Below, piece after piece: positions 18,958 to 25,220 of a DNA stretch of 64,000 bases. Origin of the DNA: Pseudorhodobacter antarcticus (GTDB lineage Bacteria; Pseudomonadota; Alphaproteobacteria; Rhodobacterales; Rhodobacteraceae); contig CAMAXX010000014.1 in NCBI GenBank assembly GCA_945862435.1, positions 1-64,000 of the forward strand. Reading direction: 5' to 3'. The notes under the pieces were generated by a model. It was not told the origin of the DNA. It worked only from the letters and a program-made list of their open reading frames with translations, and made no database searches. The translations under genes and the position numbers were made by a program. Position 1 is the first letter of the stretch; every line of letters starts with the position of its first letter.

Positions 18958-20049
18958 TCAGGTCTTTGGCAGCGGCGGTGGGGCAGATTTCAACAGCTTG
19001 GCCAGCGCGGTTTCTGCCGCGGATTTCCAGCCGTCTTGCCCTTCGCACCACACCAAAGTGGTCGCAGTTAGCGTGCCTACGGCGGCCATCGTGGCCAAAT
19101 CTGCCTCGCTATACGGGCCTTTGGTTTGCCCATCTATGCCCACATGCCATGCCGCGCCAGCCTGCGGCAAAGGTGGCGGTGCGGCCGGCGCTGGTGCTGC
19201 GCCCCATGGCCCCGCTTGGCCCGCGCCCATCGCAGCCCCTATACCTACGCCCATAGCTGCCCCCATCGTGGCCCCCATGGCCGAATTTGGCTGTGCGAGC
19301 CCTTCGGCGGCATTAAACTGCATATACTTGTGCAAATCACCGATCACTCCCATCGAGGTGCGCTTATCAAGCGCCTTTTCCACCTCGGCGGGTAGGCTGA
19401 TGTTTTCAATATAAAATTCGGGAATGCTTAGACCATATTCGGCGACTTTGGGGCCAATTGCCGTGGTCACCAGCCCGCCCAAATCGGCTGTGTTGCCCGC
19501 CATGTCCAGCACGGGAATGCCCGATTTGGCCAAAATCTGGCTGATTTCTTGCACGATAATGTTGCGGATCTGTTCGCTGATCTCATCTGCGGTAAATTCG
19601 CCATCTGTGCCGACAATCTCGGTTAGGAATTTGGCAGGGTCACCCACCCGCATGGAATAGCTGCCAAAGGCGCGCAGGCGCACGGGGCCAAATTCGGGAT
19701 CGCGCGCGATAATGGGGTTCTTTGTGCCCCATTTCTGATCATTAAACCGCGTGGTGTTGATGAAATAAATTTCCGATTTGAAGGGGCTGTCAAAACCATG
19801 ATCCCAGTGCTGCAGCGTGGTCATAATCGGCATGTTATTGGTTTCCAGCACATACATGCCAGGTGCAAACACATCTGCCAACTGGCCCTCGTGCACGAAC
19901 ACGGCGGCTTGGCCTTCGCGCACTGTCAGCTTTGCGCCGTATTTGATCGCATTGCCGTGGCGTTCAAACCGCCAAACCATTGTGTCGCGCGTCTCGTCCA
20001 GCCACGTGATGACATCAACAAATTCGCCGCCTAAAAATCCAAAAACCAT
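18958..20049 (-). CDS. SPFH-domain protein with C-terminal GYF_2 domain (YdjI-like)
   Basis: A 363-residue protein from the ATG at 20049. That ATG has a strong AAGGAGG site; the track start adds 13 residues and overlaps the upstream gene. The N-terminal two thirds is an SPFH/band-7-like domain of the virion-core/YdjI type (MVFGFLGGEFVDVITWLDE, NTADLGGLVTTAIGPKVAEYG). An Ala/Gly/Pro-rich linker follows. The end is a GYF_2-type domain (HVGIDGQTKGPYSEADLATM ... WCEGQDGW). SPFH proteins build membrane-associated scaffolds; GYF-like domains bind proline-rich peptides. Its neighbour is the zinc-ribbon membrane protein. The role is not established. Confidence 0.82.
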   Translation of the reverse strand: MVFGFLGGEFVDVITWLDETRDTMVWRFERHGNAIKYGAKLTVREGQAAVFVHEGQLADVFAPGMYVLETNNMPIMTTLQHWDHGFDSPFKSEIYFINTTRFNDQKWGTKNPIIARDPEFGPVRLRAFGSYSMRVGDPAKFLTEIVGTDGEFTADEISEQIRNIIVQEISQILAKSGIPVLDMAGNTADLGGLVTTAIGPKVAEYGLSIPEFYIENISLPAEVEKALDKRTSMGVIGDLHKYMQFNAAEGLAQPNSAMGATMGAAMGVGIGAAMGAGQAGPWGAAPAPAAPPPLPQAGAAWHVGIDGQTKGPYSEADLATMAAVGTLTATTLVWCEGQDGWKSAAETALAKLLKSAPPPLPKT

Positions 20050-20074
20050 AATTTCCTCCTTGCCCAATGGGCCG

Positions 20075-20989
20075 TTAAGTATTGCCACCCAAAAGGTCGC
20101 GCGCCAAACTTTCGATAATGGGGTGTGCCTCGGCCTCGGTCATACCGTTTTGCAGGGCAGGATTGTAAAGCATACGCAGCATCAACTCGTCCTGACGCGT
20201 CAGCAGCGCAAATTGTTCATCATCATTGAAAATCGATGGCCGTGCCAAGCCCGAATCATTAGGCAGGCCAAGCGCTTGGGCGATTTCTTCGTGCATACAG
20301 GCCAGCCGCATCAAATCTGGATGCTCGGCAGGGATAAAAACAAACGCCCGCTCATAGCTGTTGGTCGCGGCGTTGCTTTGTGTCCAGACAAGGCAATAGG
20401 TGCTGCGATCCATGCCCGTGACGCCCTCCACTTGGGCCGCGTTAATCTGCGGCAGGGCGGCGGTGATTATCGGGCCCAGCGCGCGGCGCTCGTCTGTCGA
20501 GGTGATGGCAATTGTGAAGTTGGCGTTTTGCGACACCAGCCCAATAGACAGCCCCGTCAACTGCGACAGCCGCGCCAGATAGGACGCGATCCGCGCGCGG
20601 TCGGTGGCCTGCAACGCAGCGGGAACCGACGGGCCAAAGTTCAGGGCCACCCGCACAGGCCCCGACCAGCGTGTGAGCAGAAGTGGCGTCTCTCCACGCG
20701 CGAATTTGCCGTGTTCTTCATACATGGCAATGCGCAAAAAATTGTTGGCTAGCATTACAGCGGTCAGCGGTGTATCCGGCCCCCCGCCATCCGTGCGCAG
20801 CAGGCCTTGGGACAAAAGCGATTGCTGCACCCCCGCGTAATAGGCCGCAAGCACGGTACTTTCGCTGCTTGGGGCGCTTGGCGGCGGTGCAAATTGGGGC
20901 TTGGGCGTTGGCGCGCAGGCAGCAAGGCCAACGGCGGCTGCGGCCATTGCCGCCCGCCCCATGCCCTGCATCTGCGCGCTAAATCCCAT
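20075..20989 (-). CDS. DUF2927-family lipoprotein
   Basis: A 304-residue protein with a signal peptide and lipobox (VGLAACAP, Cys at about residue 25), so it is probably a lipoprotein facing the periplasm. The conserved core ends with MHEEIAQALGLPNDSGLARP and SIFNDDEQFALLTRQDELML, the DUF2927 pattern. HEEIAQ resembles a metal-binding HExxx helix, but a protease activity is unproven. Its ATG lies 2 bases after the telA stop, and the SPFH gene follows after 25 bases, so it is part of the same transcript. Confidence 0.8.
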   Translation of the reverse strand: MGFSAQMQGMGRAAMAAAAVGLAACAPTPKPQFAPPPSAPSSESTVLAAYYAGVQQSLLSQGLLRTDGGGPDTPLTAVMLANNFLRIAMYEEHGKFARGETPLLLTRWSGPVRVALNFGPSVPAALQATDRARIASYLARLSQLTGLSIGLVSQNANFTIAITSTDERRALGPIITAALPQINAAQVEGVTGMDRSTYCLVWTQSNAATNSYERAFVFIPAEHPDLMRLACMHEEIAQALGLPNDSGLARPSIFNDDEQFALLTRQDELMLRMLYNPALQNGMTEAEAHPIIESLARDLLGGNT

Positions 20990-20991
20990 AC

Positions 20992-22179
20992 CTAAACAGA
21001 CCCACCAATATTCGCGCCCGATGCCGTGCCGCGTGATTTTGCCGCAACCAACGCATCGCGCAAGTCCGCCTCCATCTTGACCAGTTCTTCCTCGGCGCTG
21101 GCGCGTTTGGCTTTGCCTTCGTCGGCGATCTTTAGGCTTTCTTCAATCGTGGCCACGAGGGTGGCATTCGCCTTGCGCACGGCCTCAATGTCAAACACCC
21201 CGCGCTCCATTTCGGTGCGCACGATGCGATTGGTTTCCTTTAGATTTTCCGCGTTCGAGGTGAGCAGTTCGTTGGTCAAATCATTGGCCGCGCGCACCGC
21301 CTCTCCCGCCTCGCGTGAGCGTTGGATCGTAACCGCCTGCGCCAATTGTGTTTCCCACAAAGGTACGGTGTTGACTAAGGTTGAATTGATTTTGGTGACC
21401 AAGGATTTGTCATTTTCCTGCACCAAGCGGATGGAGGGCAGCGATTGCATCGTCACCTGCCGCGTCAGTTTCAGATCATGCACGCGGCGTTCTAGATCGT
21501 CGCGGGCAGCGCGCAAATCGCGCAGTTCTTGCGCGGTAATCACTTGGTCAGCCTCTGGGGCTGCGGCCACTTTTGCCTCGGCTGCGGGAATGTTGACCTT
21601 GTCTAGATCGGCCAGTTTCGCCTCGCCCGCAGCAATATAAAGCGCCAATTCGTGGTAGAAATCTAACGTCTTTTCATACAGCAAATCCAAAGACTTAATG
21701 TCTTTTAGCAGCGTATGCTCGTGGCGCAAAAGATCGTTCGTGACCATATCAATCTGGCCCTGAACCTTTTCAAATTTCGCCACAAAATTGGCAAAGGGCG
21801 CAGCGCGGCCTAGCAGCTTTTCCCACCAAACCCGCTCGCGGCGCACGTCCAGTTCCGATACGGTAAAACCGCGCAGCGTTGTGACCATGCTGCGCAGACT
21901 ATCCCCCGCAGGGCCGACATCTTTGTTCTTGACCCCTGCCAGCATTTCTTGGCTGATGGCCTGCAATTCAGCCTGCGCGCGCGATCCGAACGAAATGATC
22001 GATTGGGTGTTGCCCATATCGATCTCGTCCATCCGCTTGCGAATTTCGCCGGCTTCTTTGGCGGGGGCGTCATCCAGCGTAATCAGCGCCGTACTGGGCG
22101 CAGGCAGGATATTTGCGGTAATCTTTTCCGCTTCGGCAAGGGCGGTGGCGGCGGCAGTGCGGGTGTCGGTGCTCATCAT
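20992..22179 (-). CDS. TelA-family toxic-anion resistance protein
   Basis: A 395-residue, soluble, highly helical protein of the TelA/KlaA family. Members are linked to tellurite and envelope-antibiotic tolerance, though the biochemical role is unknown. Family segments include EIRKRMDEIDMGNTQSIISFG, GRAAPFANFVAKFEKVQGQID and QLAQAVTIQRSREAGEAVRA. Much of it should form coiled coils. The ATG at 22179 has an AGGA site; the track start, TTG at 22194, is less likely. It follows xpaC after a gap filled by a 25-bp tandem repeat. Confidence 0.85.
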   Translation of the reverse strand: MMSTDTRTAAATALAEAEKITANILPAPSTALITLDDAPAKEAGEIRKRMDEIDMGNTQSIISFGSRAQAELQAISQEMLAGVKNKDVGPAGDSLRSMVTTLRGFTVSELDVRRERVWWEKLLGRAAPFANFVAKFEKVQGQIDMVTNDLLRHEHTLLKDIKSLDLLYEKTLDFYHELALYIAAGEAKLADLDKVNIPAAEAKVAAAPEADQVITAQELRDLRAARDDLERRVHDLKLTRQVTMQSLPSIRLVQENDKSLVTKINSTLVNTVPLWETQLAQAVTIQRSREAGEAVRAANDLTNELLTSNAENLKETNRIVRTEMERGVFDIEAVRKANATLVATIEESLKIADEGKAKRASAEEELVKMEADLRDALVAAKSRGTASGANIGGSV

Positions 22180-22193
22180 TGCGTCCTGTGTCA

Positions 22194-22266
22194 AATGCGC
22201 CGTGGCGCGGGGTTTCGTTTGCGCCTTTGGCGCGGGGATTAGTTTGCGCCTTTGGCGCGGGGATTA
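22194..22266. repeat. 25-bp tandem repeat between xpaC-like and telA-like genes
   Basis: GTTTGCGCCTTTGGCGCGGGGATTA occurs twice in perfect tandem (22217-22241 and 22242-22266). A degraded third unit (TGCGCCGTGGCGCGGGGTTTC) precedes them. Each unit contains the short hairpin GCGCC-ttt-GGCGC. The second unit covers the xpaC stop codon. It looks like recent local duplication and could affect mRNA stability between the two genes. Confidence 0.85.
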
Positions 22267-23115
22267 GTTTTCCAGTTTCAGCCGATCACGTAGAACGGAT
22301 ATTTCTACATCTAGCCCCGTACGGCCTTGGCCAATCAGCGCTTTGGTGCGGCTGGCGAAGGTTGTTTCCAAATCGCGCAGCAGCACTTCGTAATCATGGC
22401 GGGCGGCGGCATCGCGGGTTTTGGCATAGTGGTCGGCAAATTTGGCTGTCGCGTCGCGTGCGCCCATCAAATAAACGGTCAGATATTTGCGCGCAGCGGT
22501 CAAATCGCCGGGGTCATCTTCGATGTTGCGAAACAGGCTTCGCGCGGTATGGGCAAAGGTTTCCACCCGCAAAGCCAAAGCGCGGTCTTTGGTGCGGGCA
22601 ATCGCCTCGGCCATCGCGGACAGCATCGCCTCGGCCTCTTCCACAGCGCGGGCCACGCGGTCGTTTTGAAAATCATAGGCCCCGTCCAACCCCTTGGCGC
22701 GCAGCGGGTCGGCCCCAAAGGCCAGCCCATGCAAAACAACGCCCGTTGCCGCGAACAGGGCGACATACAGCATCGGCTGTCCCGCAAGCACAGCGCCCAG
22801 GCCAAGCCCAGCCGCCATCAGAACATTTCCCAGCAGTTTGCGCGGCAATTTGGGCGGGCGCGCGATGCTGCGGGCATCAAATTCAGCCTGCGCGCGCAGC
22901 CCTTCGCGGGTGACCCACGCCGAAGCTGTCAGCACTGCAAAGGTGCCCAGCCCCAGAAACAACTGATTTGGCCCACCCCCCAAAAAGGCGCTGGCCAAAA
23001 ACAGATAGGGCAGTAAGAACATCAGCCGCAGGCGCTGAATGGGGGTAACAGCAACAGGCGCGGTTTCATTTGCCGCAGGGCTTGGGCTGTATTTCCCGCT
23101 GTATCGCTGCGCCAT
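22264..23115 (-). CDS. XpaC-like 5-bromo-4-chloroindolyl-phosphate hydrolysis family membrane protein
   Basis: A protein of 283 residues from ATG 23115 (MAQRYSGK). It has two hydrophobic hairpins in the first half (LMFLLPYLFLASAFLGGG and VLMAAGLGLGAVLAGQPMLYVALFAATG). The cytoplasmic helical C-terminal half (FQNDRVARAVEEAEAMLSAM, YLMGARDATAKFADHYAKTR) is typical of XpaC. The name comes from an old Bacillus phenotype; no hydrolase motif is visible. XpaC and TelA genes are neighbours in many bacteria, as here. Four bases upstream lies a 26-codon membrane ORF. Confidence 0.78.
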   Translation of the reverse strand: MAQRYSGKYSPSPAANETAPVAVTPIQRLRLMFLLPYLFLASAFLGGGPNQLFLGLGTFAVLTASAWVTREGLRAQAEFDARSIARPPKLPRKLLGNVLMAAGLGLGAVLAGQPMLYVALFAATGVVLHGLAFGADPLRAKGLDGAYDFQNDRVARAVEEAEAMLSAMAEAIARTKDRALALRVETFAHTARSLFRNIEDDPGDLTAARKYLTVYLMGARDATAKFADHYAKTRDAAARHDYEVLLRDLETTFASRTKALIGQGRTGLDVEISVLRDRLKLEN

Positions 23116-23119
23116 AAAG

Positions 23120-23200
23120 TCAGCCCCCCAAGACCGAGACATAAATAATCAGCCCCATCAGAAGGTAATAAGACAGGCTTTGAAGACGCTTTGGTGTCAT
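23120..23200 (-). CDS. 26-residue single-pass membrane microprotein (candidate)
   Basis: The ORF is too short for the track. It encodes MTPKRLQSLSYYLLMGLIIY followed by VSVLGG and a TGA that ends 4 bases before the xpaC ATG. It has a basic N-terminus and one hydrophobic helix of about 16 residues, which is an inside-to-outside single-pass layout. A GGAGG lies 12 bases before its ATG, a little far. Coupling to xpaC and the membrane-protein composition argue for a real gene. Without homologues it remains a candidate. Confidence 0.45.
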   Translation of the reverse strand: MTPKRLQSLSYYLLMGLIIYVSVLGG

Positions 23201-23330
23201 TTTGGCAAGCCGCCTCCAGCGGCCAAAAGCGCGGAGATTGTTTCCGCTGGAGTAACTATAAGCATTCTGCCCCCGTGCGGCTAGGGGGCAAGGGGGGAAA
23301 AGCGGGCGATTTGCGGCACATGGACAGGGG

Positions 23331-24314
23331 TCAGCCGCGGTTTGGGCCGCCCCTTGGCGCGCTGGGGCGCGGTTTTGCGCCCGCAGCAGGGCGGGCCGCG
23401 CTGGTTGGGCGCGGCTTGCGGGTAAATTCGCGCTCGCTTGCGCCGGCTTGTATTGCCGCGCTGCGTTCGGCGGCCATTTTCGCATCGCGCTGCAAAGACC
23501 TTGTGGGCCGCGCACGGGCCGGGGCATCGCCCGCGTCTTTGCCGCCGCTTTCGCCAAGTTGTTCGCGCAGCACGCGGGGTTTGACCTCTTCCACCATACC
23601 GGGCGTCATTTCACCCAATCGGAATGGGCCGTAGGAGATGCGGATCAGGCGGTTGACGGTTAGGTTAATCGCCGCCATCGCACGGCGGATTTCGCGGTTT
23701 TTCCCCTCGCGCAGGCCAACCGTTAGCCAAGCATTCGCGCCTTGGATACGGTCGATGACCACTTGCATTGGCTGAAACCGCTCTCCCTCTACCTCGATCC
23801 CTTTGCGCAGGGGTTCCAGATCGGGATCCATCGGGTTGCCGTTCACCCGCACGCGGTATTTGCGCAGCCAACCCGTTGAGGGCAGTTCTAGCCGCCGCTT
23901 TAGACCGCCGTCATTGGTCAACAAAAGCAGACCTTCTGAATTCAAATCCAGCCGCCCAATTGACATAACGCGCGGCAGTTCGGGGGGTAAATTGTCGAAA
24001 ACCGTCTCGCGGCCCTTTTCATCGGACGCGGATGTAACCAGCCCTTCGGGTTTGTAATACAGCCACAGGCGCGCGGGTTCGGGTTCGCTAATCGCTTTGC
24101 CGCGCACAAGGATTTTGTCGGCAGGCGTGACATTGAGGGCGGGGGAGGTGATGACCGCGCCGTTTACCGAAACCTCGCCCAGTTCGATCATTCGTTCTGC
24201 CTCGCGCCGCGATGCGACGCCCGCGCGCGACAGAACTTTGGCGATACGCTCGCCTGCGGGGGCGGAAGCGGATTTGGGGGGGGCAGATTTGGGGGGGCTT
24301 GTCTTTTCGGTCAT
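23331..24314 (-). CDS. RluB-like 23S rRNA pseudouridine synthase
   Basis: A protein of 327 residues from the ATG at 24314 (MTEKTSPPK), preceded by AGGA; the track start lies within that site. An S4 RNA-binding domain (ERIAKVLSRAGVASRREAER) is followed by the RsuA/RluB catalytic domain, with the aspartate in MSIGRLDLNSEGLLLLTNDG and the GKNREIRRAM motif. The last 80 residues are a basic Arg/Ala/Pro-rich tail (KPRPTSAARPAAGAKPRPSA), common in alphaproteobacterial members. It isomerises uridine in helix 89/90 rRNA if it is RluB; the exact site is inferred. Confidence 0.9.
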   Translation of the reverse strand: MTEKTSPPKSAPPKSASAPAGERIAKVLSRAGVASRREAERMIELGEVSVNGAVITSPALNVTPADKILVRGKAISEPEPARLWLYYKPEGLVTSASDEKGRETVFDNLPPELPRVMSIGRLDLNSEGLLLLTNDGGLKRRLELPSTGWLRKYRVRVNGNPMDPDLEPLRKGIEVEGERFQPMQVVIDRIQGANAWLTVGLREGKNREIRRAMAAINLTVNRLIRISYGPFRLGEMTPGMVEEVKPRVLREQLGESGGKDAGDAPARARPTRSLQRDAKMAAERSAAIQAGASEREFTRKPRPTSAARPAAGAKPRPSAPRGGPNRG

Positions 24315-24365
24315 TGCGGGCATCCTGTTCTTGGCGCATCTCTGCGCGAGGTTTGGCGGATAGCG

Positions 24366-24413
24366 CTGGGGCCTCAGCCCCAGACCCCGAAGGTATTTGA
24401 ATCAGTATGAAAG
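24366..24413 (+). repeat. hairpin-tail repeat, copy providing the tadA start
   Basis: The hairpin CTGGGGC-ctca-GCCCCAG (24366-24383) is followed by CCCCGA and the tail AGGTATTTGAATCAGTATGAAAG (24391-24413). The annotated ATG of tadA at 24407 lies inside the tail (CAGTATGAAAG). Confidence 0.75.
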
Positions 24414-24871
24414 AGCAACGCGCCTTTAGATCCTTTATGGAGGCCGCCCTGAGCGAGGCGCGGGCGGCGGGCGCGCGGGGCGAGGTGCCAGTGGGCGCGG
24501 TTTTGGTGCTGGGCGGCGAAGTTTTGGCGCAGGCAGGCAATCGCACGCGCGAATTGAACGACCCCACTGCCCATGCTGAAATTTTAGTGATCCGCGAGGC
24601 TTGCGCGCGGCTGGGGGCCCAGCGGCTGACGGGCGCAGATTTGTATGTAACGCTAGAGCCTTGCCCGATGTGCGCGGCAGCTATTGCGGCGGCGCGCATA
24701 GAGCGGCTGTATTTTGGCGCGAATGATCCCAAATCGGGCGGGGTGCTGGTGGGAGCAAAAGTGTTTTCGCACCCGCAGTGCCACCATGCGCCGCAGGTAT
24801 ATGATGGGATTGGGGCGCAGGAATCCGAAGCCCTGTTAAAAACGTTTTTCGCCGCGAGGCGCGCGCCCTAG
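24407..24871 (+). CDS. tadA: tRNA-specific adenosine deaminase TadA
   Basis: Deaminates A34 to inosine in tRNA-Arg(ACG). The zinc site is complete: HAE (residues 56-58, catalytic Glu) and PCPMC (85-89). The 154-residue length is normal. The track start at 24407 lies within a repeat tail and lacks a clear ribosome site; the in-frame ATG at 24437 (MEAALSEARAAG) follows TCCTTT with no better site. The gene is divergent from rluB. Good confidence on function, less on the start. Confidence 0.92.
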   Translation: MKEQRAFRSFMEAALSEARAAGARGEVPVGAVLVLGGEVLAQAGNRTRELNDPTAHAEILVIREACARLGAQRLTGADLYVTLEPCPMCAAAIAAARIERLYFGANDPKSGGVLVGAKVFSHPQCHHAPQVYDGIGAQESEALLKTFFAARRAP

Positions 24872-24932
24872 CGCCCCTTGCGGCAAACTGCCCGCGCGGG
24901 TAAACGGGGGGGCATTTGAAACGGAGCATCCC

Positions 24933-25220
24933 ATGTCCATCGACATTGATACCGCGCGCAAAGTTGCGAAACTGGCCCGCATTCGGGTAGAGACGGGCGA
25001 ATTGCCCGCCTTGGCCCAAAAGCTTTCGGACATTTTGGGCCTGATGGAGCAACTGGACGAGGTGGGTGTGACGGGCATTGAACCCATGACATCCGTCACA
25101 CCGCAGCGGCTGAAACGGCGCGCCGATGTGGTCAATGTCGGCGATCAGCAAGCCGCAGTTTTGGCCAATGCGCCTGACGCGCGCGAGGGGTTTTTTGCAG
25201 TGCCGAAGGTGGTGGAATGA
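24933..25220 (+). CDS. gatC: Asp/Glu-tRNA(Asn/Gln) amidotransferase subunit C
   Basis: The 95-residue subunit holds GatA and GatB together in the transamidosome that makes Gln-tRNA(Gln) and Asn-tRNA(Asn). It has the family pattern [20 protein letters not shown] and ends [11 protein letters not shown], the usual GatC ending. A GGAG site precedes the ATG. The stop overlaps the gatA ATG by four bases (ATGA), indicating translational coupling. gatB is not in this window. Confidence 0.95.

Follow-up and report, generated by a model that had tools for sequence, protein, structure and literature searches.

Among known small membrane proteins, many act by modulating transporters or other membrane proteins, and a small membrane partner encoded beside a large one is a known arrangement. 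KdpF, a protein of 29 residues, is the product of the first gene of kdpFABC and is probably translated in coupling with KdpA. CydX, a 37-residue subunit of cytochrome bd oxidase, is experimentally required; it is a short helix encoded in one operon across many genera, its presence is tied to one type of partner protein, and annotation has often missed it (PMC4325964). The locus described here resembles both, as members of a kind rather than of one homologous family. In a window of 64,000 nucleotides (the whole stretch of DNA that was analyzed) from Pseudorhodobacter antarcticus, a tiny predicted single-helix protein, hereafter the microprotein, is encoded first and directly before the gene for a large polytopic membrane protein, as KdpF is; its putative partner, however, is XpaC rather than a potassium-pump subunit. 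CydX shares its small size, its single-operon distribution and its tie to one partner, but sits after cydB, and its partner and sequence are unrelated to those of the microprotein.

XpaC and TelA are widespread proteins for which we know of no established biochemical role. The same xpaC-telA two-gene core occurs in Firmicutes and has been linked to nisin and tellurite tolerance, to both of which TelA contributes in Listeria (PMC12791056). A chromosomal telA is also among the tellurite-resistance loci of R. sphaeroides (reviewed in PMC6955997). In comparison with other alphaproteobacterial families, the microprotein was found in Rhodobacteraceae only. As a family, it appears to be new: when 29 members were compared with Pfam and NCBIfam, no family was hit by two or more members, and neither KdpF nor CydX was found. 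An earlier, sequence-only reading of the window had called the ORF unannotated, a description that holds for those two collections. A search of plasmid records for annotation returned a single, unannotated record, and phage records returned none; the literature on XpaC with TelA and on small proteins of Rhodobacteraceae held nothing on the microprotein. It may be listed, without a name, in global catalogues of small ORFs (e.g. PMC11364881).

Features of the microprotein locus in the window
Feature	Position	Strand	Evidence or remark
Microprotein ORF	23120..23200	-	26 codons/26 aa, MTPKRLQSLSYYLLMGLIIYVSVLGG; one predicted transmembrane helix, basic N-terminus
GGGGGG run, candidate xpaC ribosome-binding site	23124..23129	-	within the microprotein's last two Gly codons
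xpaC (PF10112)	22264..23115	-	Pfam E 1.3e-20; 74.6 bits, above the curated cut-off of 29.8
telA (PF05816)	20992..22194	-	Pfam E 1.1e-105; true start probably lies a few codons further in
DUF2927 protein, next gene of putative operon	20075..20989	-	Pfam E 1.5e-59
TATAGT, -10-like hexamer	23255..23260	-	some 55 nt 5' of the microprotein ATG
TTGCCCCCTAG, promoter-like counterpart of conserved upstream motif	23281..23291	-	exact match to the relaxed pattern
RluB-like pseudouridine synthase, upstream neighbour	23331..24323	-	Pfam S4 and PseudoU_synth_2

The peptide and position given in the sequence-only reading were correct: the microprotein ORF runs on the minus strand from an ATG at 23200-23198 to a TGA at 23122-23120, and four bases (CTTT) separate this stop from the xpaC ATG at 23115. 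Going upstream, the frame stays open over 161 codons and includes a TTG-started ORF of 145 codons from 23557. This longer candidate was rejected: the extension lacks conservation (43 codons in the relative L005, 27 in L017), which makes the ATG at 23200 the likely start. A second, earlier in-frame ATG for xpaC lies at 23142, within the microprotein ORF; an N-terminal extension of XpaC from this codon is ruled out by the conserved N-terminus MA[QEKR]RFGGKYSP, which places the xpaC start at 23115. Directly 5' of the microprotein ATG, at 23200-23240 on the minus strand, GCCGCTGGAGGCGGC forms a candidate hairpin with GGAG in its loop, and this element is kept in the window's close relatives L003-L005.

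Conservation was assessed on xpaC loci gathered from Rhodobacteraceae by way of XpaC-similar relatives, named genomes (Pseudorhodobacter, Rhodobacter, Shimia and Sulfitobacter), a Pfam profile and a microprotein profile, and their flanks were extracted from the genome sequences. A frame was counted if its end lay between -28 and +1 relative to the xpaC start and it scored at least 10 bits with the microprotein profile. Such a frame was present in 219 of 235 distinct canonical xpaC loci; the same 10-bit test at 303 other gene starts of these loci yielded none. The profile had been built from at most 29 of the 235 loci, leaving at least 190 of the 219 positives independent of it. Most of the remaining 16 loci have, by eye, a divergent hydrophobic frame at that spot (e.g. 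L100, MTTKGVKIPAFLALFVLLLGLSSGLIGGL); longer or differently placed frames account for L098, L112, L120 and L149, whose layout differs, and for L027, which has a two-helix version.

The profile was also run on one genome per genus, where it matched 155 of 199 genera. Among the 44 genomes with no match, 25 have no canonical xpaC; the other 19 have it, and in each of them a hydrophobic frame, though divergent, lies at or close to the expected place. No genome lacking canonical xpaC gave a match. Some 380 genomes of other families returned a single match, which lies inside a 692-codon frame. PF10112 proteins are uncommon outside Rhodobacteraceae, and those sampled in other alphaproteobacterial families had neither the N-terminal motif nor the microprotein. 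Searches for second copies elsewhere gave just weak single-helix matches, mostly within long frames. The sequence-only reading had staked its ORF on in-frame conservation in relatives that keep xpaC, and the ORF is so conserved, overlapping or abutting xpaC, across about 200 genera.

The dN/dS of the microprotein was 0.454 (bootstrap CI 0.38–0.53; 104 independent pairs of the same length), a moderate value, compared with ratios of 0.93 and 1.53 for the shifted reading frames of the same DNA. In the 27-residue form, the entropies of the three codon positions were 1.07, 0.71 and 1.53 bits. Together, these values indicate purifying selection on the protein. The window (L002) and its relative L005 differ in this ORF by four synonymous changes and no non-synonymous ones. 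From these data, the ORF is very likely a selected coding gene, and we infer that it is translated.

Microprotein lengths have modes at 27 and 29 residues; the shorter flavour reads roughly MSxtGLQKLAFxLLLALILYVAxtGGx and the longer roughly MSgtgLQKvAYvaLIVLLFGVtTGWLGGL. Start codons were ATG in 198 loci, GTG in 21 and TTG in 12, with four not assigned; some of L088, L075, L080 and L055 seem to start with GTG or TTG, and in L088 no start codon is evident around the conserved position. The best 17-residue segment had a mean hydropathy of 2.27 and exceeded 1.6 in 99% of 226 microproteins. Basic residues are almost confined to the first ten positions, which by the positive-inside rule suggests that the N-terminus faces the cytosol. 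An AlphaFold model was made of a read-through product (L028, a natural in-frame fusion whose TGA was read as W), and it predicted a microprotein helix at residues 3-23 with pLDDT 88-95. Thus, a product of fewer than 50 residues with one hydrophobic helix is conserved as a protein, and the sequence supports well the earlier identification of a membrane microprotein; it is probably a single-pass membrane protein of N-in/C-out orientation.

At the junction with xpaC, 119 loci have the microprotein stop and the xpaC ATG overlapping in the sequence TGATG, and nearly all of the others end 3-8 nt before the ATG. This overlapping or abutting arrangement supports well the coupled translation that the sequence-only reading had raised as a possibility. 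In 87% of 156 loci the terminal Gly-Gly opens with GGG or GGA, codons that make up 31% of Gly codons in xpaC; this excess suggests that both residues probably double as the xpaC ribosome-binding site, which may in part explain their conservation.

The putative partner was examined by structure prediction. AlphaFold2 modelled the window's XpaC with a mean pLDDT of 90.3, as four predicted membrane helices (25-45, 49-81, 92-110 and 115-133) and a cytosolic helical bundle (148-282). No significant fold relative was found in the PDB (the best, a designed protein, had E 0.014), and none was found there by sequence. Mean-field coupling analysis of 219 paired sequences (about 190 effective) recovered plausible helix-hairpin contacts within XpaC (69-96, 65-97 and 53-120). 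Between the two proteins, 37 of the top 50 couplings fell on XpaC membrane columns, which make up 37% of its columns; the null count was 25.9 ± 2.6 with a maximum of 30, from 22 within-clade shuffles that partly control for shared ancestry. The strongest pairs are on TM1, and several would fit parallel packing (19-38, 23-42 and 25-44); a test of helix orientation from the couplings was not significant (0.153 vs. 0.076 ± 0.082, maximum 0.219). Contact between the microprotein and the XpaC membrane domain is indirectly supported by these couplings. The earlier suggestion of a small membrane subunit gains from them and from the strict linkage to xpaC, short of proof.

Could the ORF act as a leader, its translation mattering and its peptide not, by coupling ribosomes to xpaC or exposing the xpaC start site? 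The nearly universal overlap or abutment of stop and start would suit such a role, as would the candidate ribosome-binding site in the terminal Gly codons with its strong over-use of GGG and GGA. However, the peptide of a pure leader would be free to vary, with position alone conserved, and here residues are constrained along the entire helix (L14, L6-Q7, Y20-V21 and G25; dN/dS 0.45), the entropy at codon position 3 is twice that at position 2, and the length is mostly 27 or 29. A pure leader would also have no need of a conserved membrane helix, and the couplings to XpaC transmembrane columns likewise speak against it. We therefore regard the leader explanation as unlikely.

The genomic neighbourhood bears on which protein the microprotein serves. 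It adjoins xpaC in all 110 profile-matched loci that were fetched with flanks, and telA lies 3' of xpaC in 141 of the 141 loci with enough sequence. The DUF2927 gene also follows telA in L036. The upstream neighbour, by contrast, varies: across the 235 loci it is RluB in 151, TerC in 53 and an XpaC paralogue in 17, these sets being partly overlapping. The microprotein gene keeps its place as the gene before it changes, and thus belongs with the genes that follow. In the 53 loci with a TerC-family gene (PF03741) before the microprotein, L030 and L031 included, the order is TerC - microprotein - XpaC - TelA, and some of these loci sit after RluB.

Upstream of the microprotein, promoter-like elements recur. 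TTCCCCCTAG was present in 54 of 231 loci, at a median of -67 relative to the microprotein start, and is usually followed 19 nt on by an element of the CTA(A/G) type. The composite TTCCCCCTAG-N19-CTAnnTT, seen some 65 nt before that start in 54-60 of the 231 loci, occurred exactly once per genome, just before this operon, in four of the five genomes searched, and a reversed control pattern had zero occurrences in the genomes searched. TATAGT was found in 32 of 231 loci, at a median of -50. A scan of the site for a standard sigma-70 promoter gave no consensus pair, the one terminator-like site is weak and lies inside xpaC, and no Rfam match was found in 20000-25000. The variable upstream genes and, in some genera, the once-per-genome motif together suggest that the microprotein probably heads its own transcription unit.

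A real membrane microprotein might instead act elsewhere—on TerC, the secretion machinery or lipid composition—and merely be co-expressed with xpaC. Given the modulation of transporters and other membrane proteins by known small proteins, and the presence of TerC just upstream in 53 of 235 loci, such a target is conceivable. Yet TerC is adjacent in a minority of loci, whereas linkage to xpaC is without exception in those fetched; genomes without canonical xpaC gave no profile match; and XpaC paralogues are often preceded by a small membrane protein of their own. On balance, a target other than XpaC seems improbable. As for a chance hydrophobic ORF in GC-rich intergenic DNA, short ORFs of this kind are common (96 of at least 20 residues were listed around the site), but such an artefact is ruled out for practical purposes by 219 of 235 loci against 0 of 303 control starts, by conservation across about 200 genera and by purifying selection.

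Taking this evidence together, we consider it probable that the ORF is the first gene of a microprotein-xpaC-telA-DUF2927 unit and encodes a single-pass XpaC subunit translated in coupling with xpaC. The unit's first product would be a membrane protein of 26-30 residues; translation of xpaC would re-initiate at or right after its stop codon, and both proteins would thus be produced together near the membrane. The microprotein helix would then pack onto the XpaC transmembrane bundle as a small stabilizing or modulating subunit. The resulting assembly would be XpaC-TelA, or TerC-XpaC-TelA in many relatives, and is thought to serve envelope, toxic-anion or metal stress; Bacillus TerC proteins load manganese onto exported proteins (PMC12096827). 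Judged from the neighbouring genes, the assembly could plausibly act in membrane or metal stress.

In 11 of 17 loci where an XpaC paralogue stands in tandem with canonical xpaC, the paralogue was observed to have its own preceding small protein (the L028 group, namely L231, L201, L259, L180, L026 and others). This protein has about 65 residues and two predicted helices, with the pattern ..NLRxVxxDTxxA..RLAFAALWLLIFALSYF, and the two tested gave no Pfam match. In L231 this small protein ends some 20 nt inside the XpaC2 frame. Canonical xpaC of L027 is preceded by a two-helix version, the second helix of which scores 20.9 bits with the microprotein profile. Tentatively, XpaC of Rhodobacteraceae might generally have a dedicated small transmembrane partner—one-helix for the canonical protein, two-helix and about 65 residues for the paralogue, with L027 as an intermediate—and might form, with TerC and TelA, a membrane assembly under its own promoter. 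If so, the stress system, which has awaited a mechanistic explanation for decades, would have in the small protein a missing subunit.

A conserved extra subunit, missed because of its small size, would alter what should be expressed or deleted in studies of XpaC and TelA: a clone begun at the xpaC ATG lacks the microprotein, and a deletion of the region takes it out as well. The microprotein would offer a well-defined 26-residue target for pull-down assays and mutagenesis, and the known small membrane proteins would gain a new family.
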